Part shown: in pieces, positions 10,716-21,071 of the stretch
Numbering within the stretch: position 1 is the stretch's first letter
Layout of the letters: each line of letters opens with the position of its first letter
Assembly (NCBI RefSeq): GCF_030066995.1
Contig: NZ_JASJAP010000005.1
Location: 124,001 to 188,000, forward strand
Length of the DNA stretch: 64,000 nucleotides
Direction: 5' to 3'
From: Erythrobacter sp.
Lineage (GTDB): Bacteria; Pseudomonadota; Alphaproteobacteria; Sphingomonadales; Sphingomonadaceae
Program-made: the position numbers and the translations under genes
Notes under the pieces: generated by a model
Databases searched by the model: none
Told to the model about the DNA's origin: nothing
The model's input: only the letters and a program-made list of their open reading frames with translations

Positions 10716-11882
10716 CTAGACTTCAGCGGTCTCGCGCTGGCCCCTCTTTCCAAAGCGACGCCGGCCCAGGATCGCCGCCGCCGCAAGCCCGAACAGGACC
10801 ATCATCGGCGGTGCGGGAACGTGCGTCCCCCCGCTTGTCGATGTGCTGGTGCTGCTCGACGTACTCGACGAGGTCGAGCTGCTTCCTGATGTCGTCGTTG
10901 AGGAGGAGGAGGAGGAGCTTGTGCTGCTCGTCATGTCGCCGGACGTACCGCCCCCACTTGTGGTCCCGCCCGAGCTTGAAGAGCTGCTCGACGAACTGGA
11001 CGAGGAACTCGAAGACGAAGTCGTCGTGCTCGTGACGTTGCCGCTAGTCGTCGATGTGCTCGACACATTGCCGCTCGTTGAGCTTGTGCTCGACACCGCG
11101 CCAGACGTGCTGGTGGTGCTCGATACGGCCCCAGAGGTGCTGGTGGTACTCGACACGTTGCCGCTGGTAGTGGTTGTCGTAGTCGTCGTGGTCGTTCCCC
11201 CGCTGGTCGTGCCGCTCGTACCGCCTGACGAGCTTGTCGAAGTCGACGAACCGCCTGTGCTGGTGCTGGTGCTGCCGCCCGAAGTCGACGTGGAACCGGA
11301 TGTTGAGGTAGCCGGATCGCCCCCCGTCGTCGTCGTGGTCACAACCGAGACGTCGCCCGATGAGGAACCGCCACCACCCACGAAGCCTCCAAAGAACCCG
11401 CCGCCAAGGCCTCCGCCAAAACCGCCAACGCCTCCACCTATGACCGCCGGACCCGCGCCCGAACCGCCGCGCACCGGCGGGAGCGGAGGCAAGGGGGCCG
11501 GCGCGTACGCGACCTGCGTGATCGGCGGGCATTCCTCGACGTCCGTGTAGGCTGCGATGGCGTCTTGCGGCAGCGGAGCGGACTGCGCGACCGTGCCGTA
11601 GGCGGGCGGGATCGGCTCACACTCAATGGTGCGTTCGACAATGCGACGGCGGCGCGGCTCGGGAAGCGGCGCCAGCTCGGGCGGGCCAAGCTTGATGTAC
11701 TTGCTGTCGGCAACCGGCGTCTCGCCGTCCACATCGGAGCTGTAGACCGGATCATCGGTCACCATCGGCTCCGCGACGCGAACCGCGCCGCCCTGCTGAG
11801 CCACGTGGACAGCTCCGCCCGTCATCAACGCCACGCCCGCTGTGGCGGCGGAGAGCTTTGCGGCGGCCAGTTTGATCGACAT
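10716..11882 (-). CDS. Ser/Thr/Gly-rich exported protein with PEP-CTERM-like tail
   Basis: A 388-residue low-complexity protein of no known family. It starts with a signal-like stretch (MSIKLAAAKLSA to about residue 25), followed by an acidic/proline region with cysteines, a glycine-rich block (about 135-170), then some 180 residues built almost only of S, T and G. These include five tandem decapeptides of the type SGxVSSTxST (DNA 11016-11165). The C-terminus has a VPAPP motif, a hydrophobic segment (MMVLFGLAAAAILG) and the basic cluster RRRFGKR, the three-part layout of PEP-CTERM/exosortase sorting signals with VPAP in place of VPEP. This suggests a surface-anchored or exported, possibly glycosylated protein. 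No exosortase gene is in the window. Confidence 0.68.
   Translation of the reverse strand: MSIKLAAAKLSAATAGVALMTGGAVHVAQQGGAVRVAEPMVTDDPVYSSDVDGETPVADSKYIKLGPPELAPLPEPRRRRIVERTIECEPIPPAYGTVAQSAPLPQDAIAAYTDVEECPPITQVAYAPAPLPPLPPVRGGSGAGPAVIGGGVGGFGGGLGGGFFGGFVGGGGSSSGDVSVVTTTTTGGDPATSTSGSTSTSGGSTSTSTGGSSTSTSSSGGTSGTTSGGTTTTTTTTTTSGNVSSTTSTSGAVSSTTSTSGAVSSTSSTSGNVSSTSTTSGNVTSTTTSSSSSSSSSSSSSSSSGGTTSGGGTSGDMTSSTSSSSSSSTTTSGSSSTSSSTSSSTSTSTSGGTHVPAPPMMVLFGLAAAAILGRRRFGKRGQRETAEV
11016..11165 (-). repeat. Five tandem 30-bp units encoding Ser/Thr decapeptides
   Basis: Within the Ser/Thr-rich gene, five consecutive 30-bp units encode, in protein order, SGNVSSTTST, SGAVSSTTST, SGAVSSTSST, SGNVSSTSTT and SGNVTSTTTS. 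Unit length stays in frame and the units differ by scattered substitutions, so this is a coding minisatellite that could change copy number by slippage or recombination. A run of about 19 serine codons follows. Confidence 0.85.
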
Positions 11883-12123: not shown

Positions 12124-13167
12124 TCAGCCGGGCGCGTCGTCATCGAACAGACGCGACTGGCGATCCGGTGCGCGCGGCGCATCGAGCCCCAAATGCTCCC
12201 ACCCGGCCTCGTTGAGCACCCGGCCGCGCGCGGTGCGCGCCAGCAGACCCAGCTGAATGAGGTAAGGCTCGACCACTTCCTCGACCGTATCGCGCGGCTC
12301 GGCCAGACCCGCCGCCAGCGTTTCAACGCCGACCGGACCGCCCTTGTAGGTCTCGGCGATCATGGTGAGGTAGCGGCGATCCATGGCATCGAGCCCGAGG
12401 CGGTCGATCTCCAAACGAGTGAGCGCATCGTCCGCGATAGCCCTTGTGACCGTGTCCTGCCCGGCAACGTGTGCAAAGTCGCGCACCCGGCGCAGCAGCC
12501 GCCCCGCCACACGCGGCGTCCCGCGCGAACGGCGCGCGATCTCGCGCGCGCCATCCGCCTCGATCGCCAGCCCGAGCAACCGCGCGCCGCGCGTCACCAC
12601 CTGATCAAGCTCGTCATGGGTGTAGAACTGCAAGCGCACCGGAATGCCGAAGCGGTCGCGCAGGGGCGTTGTTAGGAGCCCCTGCCGCGTCGTCGCGCCG
12701 ATCAGCGTGAAGGGCGGCAGATCGATCCTGACGCTGCGCGCCGAGGGCCCCTCGCCGATGATGATGTCGAGCGCGCGGTCCTCCATCGCGGGGTAGAGCA
12801 CCTCTTCGACGACCGCGCTCATCCGGTGGATCTCGTCAATGAAGAGCACGTCGTGCGGTTCAAGATTGGTAAGCAGCGCGGCGAGGTCCCCCGCCTTTGC
12901 GATCACCGGGCCGGACGTGGCGCGAAAGCCCACACCCAGCTCCGCCGCGACGATCTGGGCGAGCGTCGTCTTGCCCAGCCCCGGAGGCCCGAAGAACAGT
13001 GTATGGTCCATCGCCTCCCCGCGCGCCTTGGCGCTTTCGATGAACACCCGCAGATTGTCGCGCGCGGCCTCCTGCCCGATGAACTCGGCAAGCGACTTGG
13101 GCCGCAGCGCAGTGTCCGGATCGCCGGGCTGCCGGTCGGGTGTGTGGAGAGGGACGGGGTCGGTCAT
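12124..13167 (-). CDS. ruvB: Holliday junction branch migration helicase RuvB
   Basis: A 347-residue AAA+ motor that drives Holliday junction branch migration together with RuvA. The Walker A loop [10 protein letters not shown] lies near residues 59-68 and Walker B/DEIH is in [11 protein letters not shown]; the C-terminal winged helix ends with the [13 protein letters not shown] region typical of RuvB. Length is normal. The ATG at 13167 is preceded by a close purine-rich AAGGA. Unusually, a copy of a hairpin repeat begins only 8 bp upstream of the start codon, so the ruvB leader lies inside the inserted unit that separates it from ruvA. Confidence 0.97.
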
Positions 13168-13174
13168 TGTCCTT

Positions 13175-13203
13175 CGTCACCCTGAACTTGTTTCAGGGTC
13201 CAT
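13175..13203 (+). repeat. REP-like hairpin repeat, left end of GIY-YIG unit
   Basis: A 29-bp sequence with outer end CGTCA and an 8-bp perfect stem ACCCTGAA/TTCAGGGT around the loop CTTGT, followed by CCAT. It is identical over 29 bp to 20945-20973 upstream of katG, and 26 of 29 positions match the inverted copy at 13549-13577. It lies 8 bp upstream of the ruvB start codon, so on ruvB mRNA the hairpin would sit just before the ribosome binding site. Confidence 0.88.
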
Positions 13204-13223
13204 TCCCGGGCACGCTCGCTCCC

Positions 13224-13541
13224 ATGAGCATTGAGCGCGTCCCGTGCGTCTACATCATCGCGAGCAAGCCGTATGGGACGCTCTACATCGGGGTCACCAG
13301 CGACCTTGTGGGACGCCTTTGGCAACACCGAAACGGCGAAATCGAGGGCTTTACCAAGCGATACAAGGTGCATCGCCTGGTTCGCTACGAAGCGTTTGGC
13401 GACATGGAAAGCGCGATCAAGCGCGAGAAGCGGCTCAAGAACTGGCACTGCCAGTGGAAGATCAATTTGATTGAGAGCGAGAACCCGGATTGGCAGGACC
13501 TGGCGGTTGGGCTTGGCTTGCCGCCGATTGGTCTGTGTTGA
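13224..13541 (+). CDS. Small GIY-YIG nuclease family protein
   Basis: A 105-residue single-domain GIY-YIG protein of the UPF0213/YhbQ-like size class. The signature halves are VYII (9-12) and YIGVT (21-25), followed by the conserved arginine R31 and a putative metal-binding glutamate E68 in AIKREKR. The ATG at 13224 starts the domain directly; the upstream extension is simply translated repeat. The gene is convergent to ruvA and divergent from ruvB, filling the gap between these two normally adjacent genes, and is bounded by inverted copies of a 29-bp hairpin repeat (13175-13203 and 13549-13577). Biochemical function is unknown; a nuclease acting on structured DNA or on the flanking hairpins is a reasonable hypothesis only. 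Confidence 0.85.
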   Translation: MSIERVPCVYIIASKPYGTLYIGVTSDLVGRLWQHRNGEIEGFTKRYKVHRLVRYEAFGDMESAIKREKRLKNWHCQWKINLIESENPDWQDLAVGLGLPPIGLC

Positions 13542-13548
13542 AACGCTG

Positions 13549-13577
13549 ATGGATCCTGAAACGAGTTCAGGATGACG
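13549..13577 (-). repeat. REP-like hairpin repeat, right end of GIY-YIG unit
   Basis: The inverted partner of 13175-13203. Stem ATCCTGAA/TTCAGGAT around loop ACGAG, ending in ATGACG. Against the left copy it differs at three positions: one in the loop and two that face each other in the stem (C-G replaced by T-A), so pairing is kept. A partial third copy (GTTCAGGATGACA) follows at 13586-13598. It starts 7 bp after the stop codon of the GIY-YIG gene. Confidence 0.86.
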
Positions 13578-13615
13578 GGTTGGAAGTTCAGGATGACAGT
13601 GGAGAGAGGCCGCCA

Positions 13616-14221
13616 TCACCCCGCCGCCTTCTTGAGCGCCACGCGGATCAGGTCGCCTTCACCTGCGGCTTCGCCCAACTCTTCGACTGCGCGCGCGACC
13701 GCTTGCGCCGCCACCGCTGGCTTGAAGCCGAGGTTCTCCAATGCGCTCACCGCGTCGGCGCTGGCGCCGCCCTTTGGAGCCGACGCCACGCCCCCGCTTG
13801 AGGCTGTGCCGCCCGGAAGCGCGCCAGCCTTGTCCTTGAGTTCATTGACGATCCGCCCCGCCAGCTTCGGACCCACGCCGTTGGCGCGCGCCACGCTGGC
13901 CGCATCGCCCGCCGCGCACGCATCGCGCAGTTCTCCGGTCGAGAGCGCGGAGAGGATCGCAAGGCCCACTTTGCTGCCCACGCCCTGAACCTGCGTCAGC
14001 AGGCGGAACCAGTCGCGCTCGGCGCTCATCGCAAAGCCAAGCAAGCGCATGTCGTTCTCGCTCACCTGAAGATCGGTGTGCACCGTGCACGCCTCTCCGA
14101 CATTGCCGAGCGCCGCCAGCGTGCGCGCCGAGCAGTGCACGAGGTAACCCACCCCCTGCACGTCGACGATGGCCCAGTCCTCACCGGTTTCATCGAGCCT
14201 GCCGTTGAGCTTTGCGATCAT
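13616..14221 (-). CDS. ruvA: Holliday junction branch migration complex subunit RuvA
   Basis: A 201-residue protein that binds the four-way junction and recruits RuvB. The N-terminal OB-fold begins MIAKLNGRLDE and includes the VGYLVHCS strand; two helix-hairpin-helix motifs are visible (LTQVQGVGSKVGLAIL and ANGVGPKLAGRIVNELK); an alanine-rich flexible linker leads to the small C-terminal RuvB-binding domain. I chose the ATG at 14221 because this is the conserved RuvA start; the frame extends 27 codons upstream without family similarity. It is upstream of ruvB on the same strand but separated by 448 bp containing the GIY-YIG unit. No ruvC is next to it. Confidence 0.95.
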   Translation of the reverse strand: MIAKLNGRLDETGEDWAIVDVQGVGYLVHCSARTLAALGNVGEACTVHTDLQVSENDMRLLGFAMSAERDWFRLLTQVQGVGSKVGLAILSALSTGELRDACAAGDAASVARANGVGPKLAGRIVNELKDKAGALPGGTASSGGVASAPKGGASADAVSALENLGFKPAVAAQAVARAVEELGEAAGEGDLIRVALKKAAG

Positions 14222-14538
14222 TGGATGCTTGTCGCCGATGCGCTCCGCGATTTCCAGAGCGGAACGTGCACTTATCGTCATTGCGAGCCGCGCCAGGGGC
14301 ATGGTGGGGGGTACAGCGACTCACTCGGTTCGTCGCGCGTGCAGAACGCCTGGAACACATGGAACACTGTCCTGGAGCTAAAATCGAACCGATTATACGC
14401 GCGCCTTTTGATCGAAACAGGCGATCAAAGGGTAAGGCGATGCGGTTCGTCATGGCCCGCGCTCTTACCGTCGCAGCCGACAGTAGGAAAACCGAAGCGC
14501 TTCTCGACACGCAATCGCTTTTCGCTATTGCAACATGA
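14222..14538. other. Intergenic region between divergent ruvA and aroC
   Basis: A 317-bp stretch without a credible gene; small open frames here overlap the two flanking promoters and have no family features. It must carry promoters for both ruvA and aroC. The only pattern seen is three direct GAAC tetramers at 14344, 14353 and 14362, spaced 9 bp. The alphaproteobacterial LexA box (GAAC-N7-GAAC, 11-bp spacing) is not matched, so an SOS operator cannot be claimed. Confidence 0.5.
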
Positions 14539-20944: not shown

Positions 20945-21071
20945 CGTCACCCTGAACTTGTTTCAGGGTCCATCACCGGTACTTGCGCTGCATCCTTGGG
21001 AGGCGGAGCCAGCGCGGGCGAAGGATGCTGGAAGCGAAGCTGGCCAAAGGCCAAACGAGTTCAGCATGACG
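20945..21071 (+). repeat. REP-like composite hairpin element without a gene, between ahpF and katG
   Basis: A 127-bp unit bounded by CGTCAC on the left and ATGACG on the right. The left 29 bp are identical to the left end of the GIY-YIG unit (13175-13203). Inside is a second perfect stem GCATCCTT/AAGGATGC (20990-20997 and 21021-21028). The right end retains AACGAGTTCAGCATGACG; its stem ATGCTG/CAGCAT differs from the ATCCTG/CAGGAT type by another paired change, and its loop is enlarged by a GC-rich hairpin. It contains no open frame, so it looks like a non-autonomous copy. Confidence 0.8.

Follow-up and report, generated by a model that had tools for sequence, protein, structure and literature searches.

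A GIY-YIG nuclease gene between inverted CGTC-type REPs: a candidate mobile element of bacteria

A small GIY-YIG nuclease gene lies between two inverted CGTC-type REPs in the 64,000-nucleotide stretch of Erythrobacter sp. DNA analysed here (the window), and comparison across genomes indicates that this locus is one case of a widespread association between GIY-YIG genes and inverted repeats. The unit is probably one copy of a mobile element, in which the nuclease would move both its own gene and gene-less pairs of CGTC REPs; as part of the same reading, the REPIN-like CGTC REP pairs scattered in the same genomes are its likely gene-less relatives. We lean slightly towards a broader proposal, in which small GIY-YIG nucleases supply the missing enzymes that mobilise CGTC REPs, Neisseria dRS3 among them, and different GIY-YIG clades serve different hairpin classes.

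The unit and its repeats

The unit and its surroundings have the following features (window positions).

13175..13203, plus strand: left CGTC-type REP (tag CGTC, 8-bp stem, 5-nt loop, tail CCAT)
13549..13577, minus strand: right CGTC-type REP, inverted, with a compensatory stem change (sequence, hairpin fold)
13224..13541, plus strand: GIY-YIG nuclease gene (protein P0001), 105 amino acids plus stop (Pfam PF01541)
13176..13576, no strand: 401-bp unit (GTCA ... TGAC), of equal length in seven genomes of the genus
13586..13598, minus strand: partial extra REP arm (sequence)
20946..21071, no strand: gene-less REP pair with a degenerate right arm (sequence and repeat search of the genome)
12124..13167, minus strand: left neighbour of the unit, an ORF that we take to be ruvB
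13616..14302, minus strand: right neighbour of the unit, an ORF that is presumably ruvA

The left REP reads CGTCACCCTGAACTTGTTTCAGGGTCCAT, and the right REP in reverse complement reads CGTCATCCTGAACTCGTTTCAGGATCCAT. These copies are identical at 26 of 29 positions; two of the three differences lie opposite each other as one stem pair (C-G against T-A), and the third falls within the loop. Each copy still folds, with a predicted 4-nt tag, 8-bp stem, 5-nt loop and 4-nt tail (−7.1 and −6.1 kcal/mol; z −3.6 and −3.8, respectively). An earlier, sequence-only reading of this DNA had described a 105-amino acid GIY-YIG gene between inverted 29-bp palindromic repeats, the pattern of differences between these, and a partial extra copy at 13586–13598, all of which direct reading and the PF01541 match bear out. 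It had also proposed a related gene-less element, which is there at 20946–21071 with one intact REP but with a degenerate second arm.

The unit sits in the presumed ruvA-ruvB junction, where a 401-bp P0001-type unit of exactly this length occurs in G000 (the window genome), G003, G029, G033, G034, G036, and G039. Three further frames (76–151 amino acids) overlap the unit, none of which matches a Pfam family at E 0.1. A known RNA family at the locus was rejected, as the sole Rfam match was below threshold and outside the unit. Likewise rejected was an IS or MITE with a DDE transposase, there being no such gene in the frames of the unit and no target-site duplication in sight. Elsewhere in the window, a 388-amino acid ORF (10716–11882) contains an extended Thr/Ser/Gly-rich region, and its C-terminal tail resembles PEP-CTERM by eye.

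The repeats had been called REP-like. They are indeed REPs, and their hairpins place them in a named class, the CGTC REPs. This superfamily of CGTC-tagged REPs was described in 2013 by Di Nocera, De Gregorio and Rocco, whose account reports no dedicated transposase and leaves open how the repeats spread; it places them chiefly in alphaproteobacteria, with further occurrences in Neisseria, Rickettsia, and Wolbachia, and includes Neisseria dRS3 (the Neisseria CGTC-1) and Rickettsia RPE-4 and RPE-6 (PMC3733652). The features given there are an unpaired CGTC (or TGTC/CCTC), a stem of 8–9 bp, a loop of 4–5 nt, a CCA-type tail, and occurrence mainly as HH dimers (PMC3733652). The window REPs have an unpaired CGTC, an 8-bp stem, a 5-nt loop, a CCAT tail, and HH pairs (16 of 20 places).

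The window genome comprises 3.3 Mb in 9 contigs and has the CTGAAC-type repeat at 20 places (at most 3 mismatches). Sixteen of these are arranged as eight inverted pairs whose tags face outward; seven pairs are gene-less, and the eighth is the gene-bearing unit. A strict scan detected 15 CGTC hairpins in 1.2 Mb of this genome and none in the reversed control; a first, looser REP scan was dropped as unclean (43 matches vs. 21 in the reversed control).

The GIY-YIG protein

P0001 matches PF01541 (GIY-YIG) with an E-value of 6e-15 and no other Pfam family. Residues Y8, G16, Y19, R29, E66, and N85 are invariant in 24 homologues. The Tyr, Arg, and Glu of the GIY-YIG motif have catalytic roles, and P0001 has the marks of the superfamily: the PF01541 match, the GIY-YIG motif, and this Tyr/Arg/Glu set. 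An AlphaFold model (pLDDT 92) is closest among PDB structures to UPF0213 (1zg2), followed by the GIY-YIG domains of Slx1 and UvrC, with E<0.001 for 1zg2 only. Sequence likeness to UPF0213-type proteins is distant (profile E 1.9e-9). Slx1 is described as cutting branched DNA (PMC6902002).

Among 17 P0001-like genes, 13 of them at ruvA-ruvB, the median dN/dS was 0.17 and the maximum 0.33 (129 of 136 pairs, those with finite dS); these values are rough because synonymous change is high (median pS 0.59). By this measure the P0001-type gene is under purifying selection. Decayed copies also occur, with internal stops in three of the seven copies in genome G054 and in locus L003 of the window genome. 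At E 1e-3, in a count that takes in other GIY-YIG clades, 46 of 61 genus genomes have a match to P0001; at E 1e-10, 75 of 299 phylum genomes do.

GIY-YIG genes lie between inverted repeats

Loci were picked by GIY-YIG protein similarity only, blind to repeats. Each genome search supplied at most 30 loci, mostly the best match per genome, and one search took the best 80 of at least 575 relatives; of 204 loci, 23 were left out beforehand for being too near a contig end, and 181 were scored. The flank score compares the 200 bp upstream with the reverse complement of the 200 bp downstream, with a threshold of at least 14, and control intervals were of equal length, shifted by 700–1500 bp. The window locus scores 21.5.

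The threshold was reached at 32 of 33 genus loci (2 of 132 shifted intervals), 23 of 25 order loci (0 of 100), 12 of 20 phylum loci (1 of 80), 25 of 30 contigs of a viral collection (5 of 164), and 54 of 73 loci in named genomes (2 of 410). Over all sets, inverted repeats stood on both sides of 146 of 181 loci but of only 10 of 886 shifted intervals, and 115 of 145 loci still scored at least 14 with one row per 80% protein identity. Bracketing of such genes beyond chance, which the sequence-only reading had proposed to test, holds across the phylum and for some loci in other phyla, and the opposite outcome, that GIY-YIG genes of relatives show no link to the repeat, is contradicted by these loci. 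A strict CGTC hairpin was present on both sides at 100 of 181 loci (80 of 145 after de-replication) and at none of 701 controls. Against the association, no inverted repeat reaches this threshold at 35 of the 181 loci, and 46 of the 146 passing loci fail the strict CGTC rule.

Passing loci in named genomes include a Betaproteobacteria locus (L125), two in Dyella (L190 and L194), a planctomycete (L169), an elusimicrobium (L188), and Neisseria gonorrhoeae (L175), the last with hairpins ATTCCCGC...GCGGGAAT. Failing loci in these groups are L126 and L185 in Dyella and L135 and L140 in planctomycetes. Matches were also present in 33 plasmid records; 8 of 10 examined pass, two of them (L358 and L359) with palindromes of other types.

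In the window genome, tblastn with P0001 gave 14 matches. Inverted palindromes bracket all seven copies of the window gene's clade whose two flanks could be read. Two matches from another clade, L341 (flank score 9.0) and L346 (7.5), have no such bracket, and the rest are fragments or lie at contig ends. The palindromes are of several types: CTGAAC-GTTTCAG (L001), TTCCCGCG (L002–L004), CTCCTGC (L005), TTGCGAG (L006), and TCCCCGC (L007). L005 and L007 have GTGA feet instead of CGTCA, which counts against the mobile-element reading.

Genes in general are not bracketed in this way, an explanation rejected by ORF controls. Flank scores of at least 14 were found for 4 of 1,042 ORFs in 1.2 Mb of the window genome, one of them antisense to the GIY-YIG copy L006, and for 3 of 341 in 400 kb of a relative, none with REP-like arms (together 7 of 1,383 in two genomes). 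At L004 and G001 the greedy ORF sets took a longer frame instead of the GIY-YIG gene, and neither gene is therefore among the seven. A resident RAYT as mover in the window genome was also rejected, since no Y1 transposase (PF01797) was detected in that genome; 5 of 14 control genomes have a match.

A second GIY-YIG clade

Other GIY-YIG proteins, long and short, were intended as a negative control at the same threshold. In the first draw, 0 of 10 long proteins but 4 of 6 short ones scored at least 14 (3 of 6 with alternative starts), and the control became a lead because short GIY-YIG proteins were also bracketed. In a wider draw from the same order, the threshold was reached by 8 of 18 short proteins, as compared with 1 of 12 long ones and 1 of 101 control intervals. 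This second clade (GHTD type, YILxCSDGSYYVGHTD) is single-domain and flanked by TCGA-type hairpins, CCTGAGCTTGTCGAAGG, with a CGYTC foot; the CCTGAGCTTGTCGAAGG motif accompanies six of the eight bracketed short proteins. Its loci are L335, L338, L350, L371, L373, L374, L377, L385, and L388, and a scan of the viral collection found no member of the clade.

Repeat type follows protein type

The match between repeat and protein was examined in 112 loci (from L001–L090 and L125–L204) whose frame is intact and whose flanks score at least 14. Protein identity and repeat similarity are correlated (Mantel rho 0.41; maximum of 999 permutations, 0.158), and repeat type changes 26 times on the protein tree, as compared with 65.4 after shuffling (0 of 200 shuffles as low), on a tree that is weakly resolved (6 of 109 branches starred as well supported). 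Within the P0001 clade, 17 of 18 rows were scored CTGAAC, and the remaining one (L012), mis-scored by the script, carries CTGAAC-type REPs too. A flank matrix for the window genome has a high diagonal, the upstream and downstream arms of each gene matching; off the diagonal, matches are mainly among L002, L003, and L004, which share a type, with a few weaker cross-matches of 13–17. Host relatedness adds to the match, yet paralogues within one genome differ in repeat type. On these comparisons, repeat type follows protein type.

Mobility of the unit

Near-identical copies (94–98.5% identity over about 400–480 bp) at unrelated loci were found in G054 (seven copies), in G026, G028, and G033 (two each), and in the window genome (two full and two partial). 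Copies in G258 are older (76–87% identity). Plasmid records of Sphingobium, Azospirillum, and Shinella include some that carry the unit and others in which the corresponding site is without it. The dispersed copies and the sites with and without the unit indicate that the unit is mobile. In Azospirillum lipoferum 4B (L356), the element splits the sufB-sufC operon, as it does ruvA-ruvB in the window.

Just outside the mobile copies is another degenerate repeat, AGCGGACATTC..CGACCCC / CCACCCACTT..GCGGACG (L209–L212, L214–L216, L003, L004, and L205–L208), and because it adjoins them a site preference is possible. The absence of a target-site duplication noted for the window extends to the dispersed copies and plasmid sites, and no exact, reproducible element end was found among those compared. 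At the Sphingobium site, between fnrL and a response regulator (L361 and L363), the gene-less plasmids TYG64 (L363, exactly) and TYG74 (L361, imperfectly) hold one palindrome composed of the outer halves of the two REPs seen in the occupied plasmids. This may be the scar of a loop-to-loop excision, or else the site as it was before insertion. Plasmid TYG72 has no REP there, and a further record, TYG65, also lacks the unit. A comparison of possible homing sites (three plasmid loci and ruvA-ruvB) gave this one exact palindrome, in the gene-less Sphingobium record, and nothing consistent elsewhere. The symmetric palindrome was rejected as a general target, being too rare (5 vs. 441 ordinary REPs in a REP-enriched set of 2.36 Mb).

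The ruvA-ruvB locus and REP copy number

Fourteen genomes other than that of the window also have a gene, of 60–82% identity, between ruvA and ruvB. The first REP core is 21–45 bp after ruvA in 9 of the 15 junctions and further away in five (L011, L016, L017, L039, and L045); at L010, the left REP was missed by the search pattern. Ten other compared loci have no ruvA or ruvB within the stretch of nearby sequence covered, and four of these are P0001-like (L040, L041, L043, and L044). Comparison of occupied and empty junctions, as the sequence-only reading had suggested, revealed relatives with the gene and two REPs, with a REP pair, with a solo REP, or with nothing. Among gene-less junctions, G017 has a gene-less REP pair, G008, G051, and G041 have a solo REP near ruvA, G010 has one REP near ruvB, G016 has 6 bp only, and most others have no such REP. 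The ruvA-ruvB copy in the clade of the window is by now an old locus, kept by vertical descent, and not a new insertion; the stable inheritance of this P0001-type copy, in place of movement, counts against a mobile element.

Beyond the two flanking copies, CTGAAC-type REPs number a median of 12 in the 11 genus genomes whose gene is at least 59% identical, vs. 0.5 in the 50 lacking such a gene, 25 of which have no such REP (one-sided Mann-Whitney p = 5e-5, uncorrected for kinship). Equal abundance of the repeats in genomes lacking the gene, which would have spoken against the link, is thus not what these counts show. On the other side, 9 of the 50 genomes without the gene hold at least 5 REPs (among them G025 with 32, G016 with 26, G010 with 22, and G014 with 13). 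In G025 and G036, most of the gene-less pairs listed are mixed, joining a CCC/GGG-stem REP to an ATGC/GCAT-stem REP.

Proposed mechanism and alternatives

In the mechanism that we favour, a REP would form a hairpin when single-stranded or extruded as a cruciform, and the Slx1-like nuclease would recognise the hairpin and its CGTC foot and nick there. Cuts at two REPs would free or expose the segment between them, whether a REP pair or the gene, which host replication or repair might then re-insert elsewhere. Gene-less pairs would be served in trans, much as GTAG REPs are by RAYT, although here the cut would be hydrolytic and involve no tyrosine-DNA intermediate. We infer that the nuclease may act on its cognate hairpins and drive REP spread, a part played by RAYTs for GTAG REPs with unrelated chemistry. 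GIY-YIG enzymes hydrolyse DNA without a covalent intermediate, a chemistry unlike that of the bacterial transposases known to us. No GIY-YIG enzyme is known to join strands, which leaves the insertion step without an assigned enzyme and counts against this mechanism.

The main rival mechanism is homing into existing REPs, by which the nuclease would cut gene-less REPs or pairs and the gene-bearing copy would repair the break via its REP arms, REP pairs spreading otherwise. GIY-YIG enzymes are homing nucleases elsewhere, the palindromes of TYG64 and, imperfectly, TYG74 are suited to it, and so are the ruvA-ruvB junctions, where gene and two REPs, a pair (G017), solo REPs (G008, G051, and G041), or nothing occupy about the same position. 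However, loss from a gene-bearing copy gives the same states, symmetric palindromes are as rare as stated above, and the flanks of dispersed copies show other degenerate repeats and no gene-less REP; we regard homing as possible but doubtful. That the gene is a passenger between two CGTC REPs moved by another transposase or by host recombination is improbable. Some genomes do keep REPs without the gene, but a passenger would not be expected to match its repeats by protein subfamily, such brackets surround well under 1% of other ORFs, and the window genome has no Y1 transposase. The 2013 account, moreover, describes CGTC repeats as having no link to tyrosine transposase genes and a few fortuitous associations with other transposase classes (PMC3733652).

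Two further explanations assign the hairpins or the nuclease a role for gene or host. Under one, the nuclease resolves REP cruciforms to protect replication and is kept near its substrates for the benefit of the host. Purifying selection, the Slx1-related fold, and inheritance at ruvA-ruvB agree with such housekeeping, but a selfish element accounts better for the patchy spread, the decayed copies, and the several subfamilies found in one genome, and we hold the housekeeping role to be quite improbable. It is very improbable that the REPs are terminators or mRNA stabilisers of the gene that shield its neighbours, with movement incidental. Hairpins flanking a short gene could insulate it, and many REPs are described as plausibly transcribed (PMC3733652), but the hairpins are mostly in gene-less pairs elsewhere (14 of 20 places in the window genome, seven pairs), the unpaired CGTC and CCA feet recur, and within one host the repeat type varies with the protein. 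The mobile-element reading thus remains the one we prefer. A matched nuclease per repeat type would offer a concrete enzyme candidate for the spread of CGTC REPs.

Comparison with known systems

The parallel with REP/RAYT systems, drawn by the sequence-only reading with a GIY-YIG enzyme in the place of RAYT, is supported by the bracketing across the phylum and by the higher REP number in genomes with the gene; what changes is that the repeats turn out to be a named class, the CGTC REPs, and the ruvA-ruvB element to be old. As in REPtrons, TnpA-REP, and REPINs, an enzyme gene lies between inverted REPs and gene-less pairs occur in the same genome. Co-evolution of enzyme and REP (described for RAYT in PMC8266576) and old, vertically inherited enzymes with persisting REPINs (described for RAYT in PMC8049555) are further likenesses. 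The enzyme and tag differ: RAYT is a Y1 HUH tyrosine transposase paired with GTAG, and here GIY-YIG is paired with CGTC, with no Y1 in the window genome. Judged as a REPtron, the window unit has type-matched inverted REP flanks and has neither a Y1 transposase nor a GTAG tag.

Single-domain GIY-YIG proteins of UPF0213/Slx1 type (1zg2, 1ywl, and 6seh) share fold and size with P0001 but are only distantly similar in sequence and have no repeat association among the papers listed. The GIY-YIG homing endonucleases I-TevI and Seg and the Penelope-like elements are cases of a GIY-YIG nuclease used by a selfish element; the present unit differs in its length of about 0.4 kb, its hairpin ends, its one recognisable gene, and its lack of a reverse transcriptase (Pfam and Rfam). 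The CGTC REPs as described share the tag, the 8-bp stem, the 5-nt loop, the CCA tail, the tags-outward pairs, and mixed pairs as in CGTC-2 (PMC3733652). They differ in that repeats of the window type bracket a GIY-YIG gene that matches them in type, whereas the 2013 account reports no dedicated transposase.

The sequence-only reading was aware of no described GIY-YIG/REP system, and among the full-text matches listed no title or beginning of an abstract connects GIY-YIG with REPs. PMC9465073 and PMC10928387, in the passages concerned, name GIY-YIG and RAYT or palindromes without linking them. We call the unit categorically new because its enzyme class differs from RAYT and its setting from that of known homing nucleases; if the enzyme acts like RAYT, classing the unit with the known REP/RAYT kind would also be fair. 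The arrangement points to a second, independent origin of the REP-plus-enzyme combination, and if the broader proposal is true, the CGTC and TCGA systems together would be bacterial transposable elements of a new class, able to move with no transposase.
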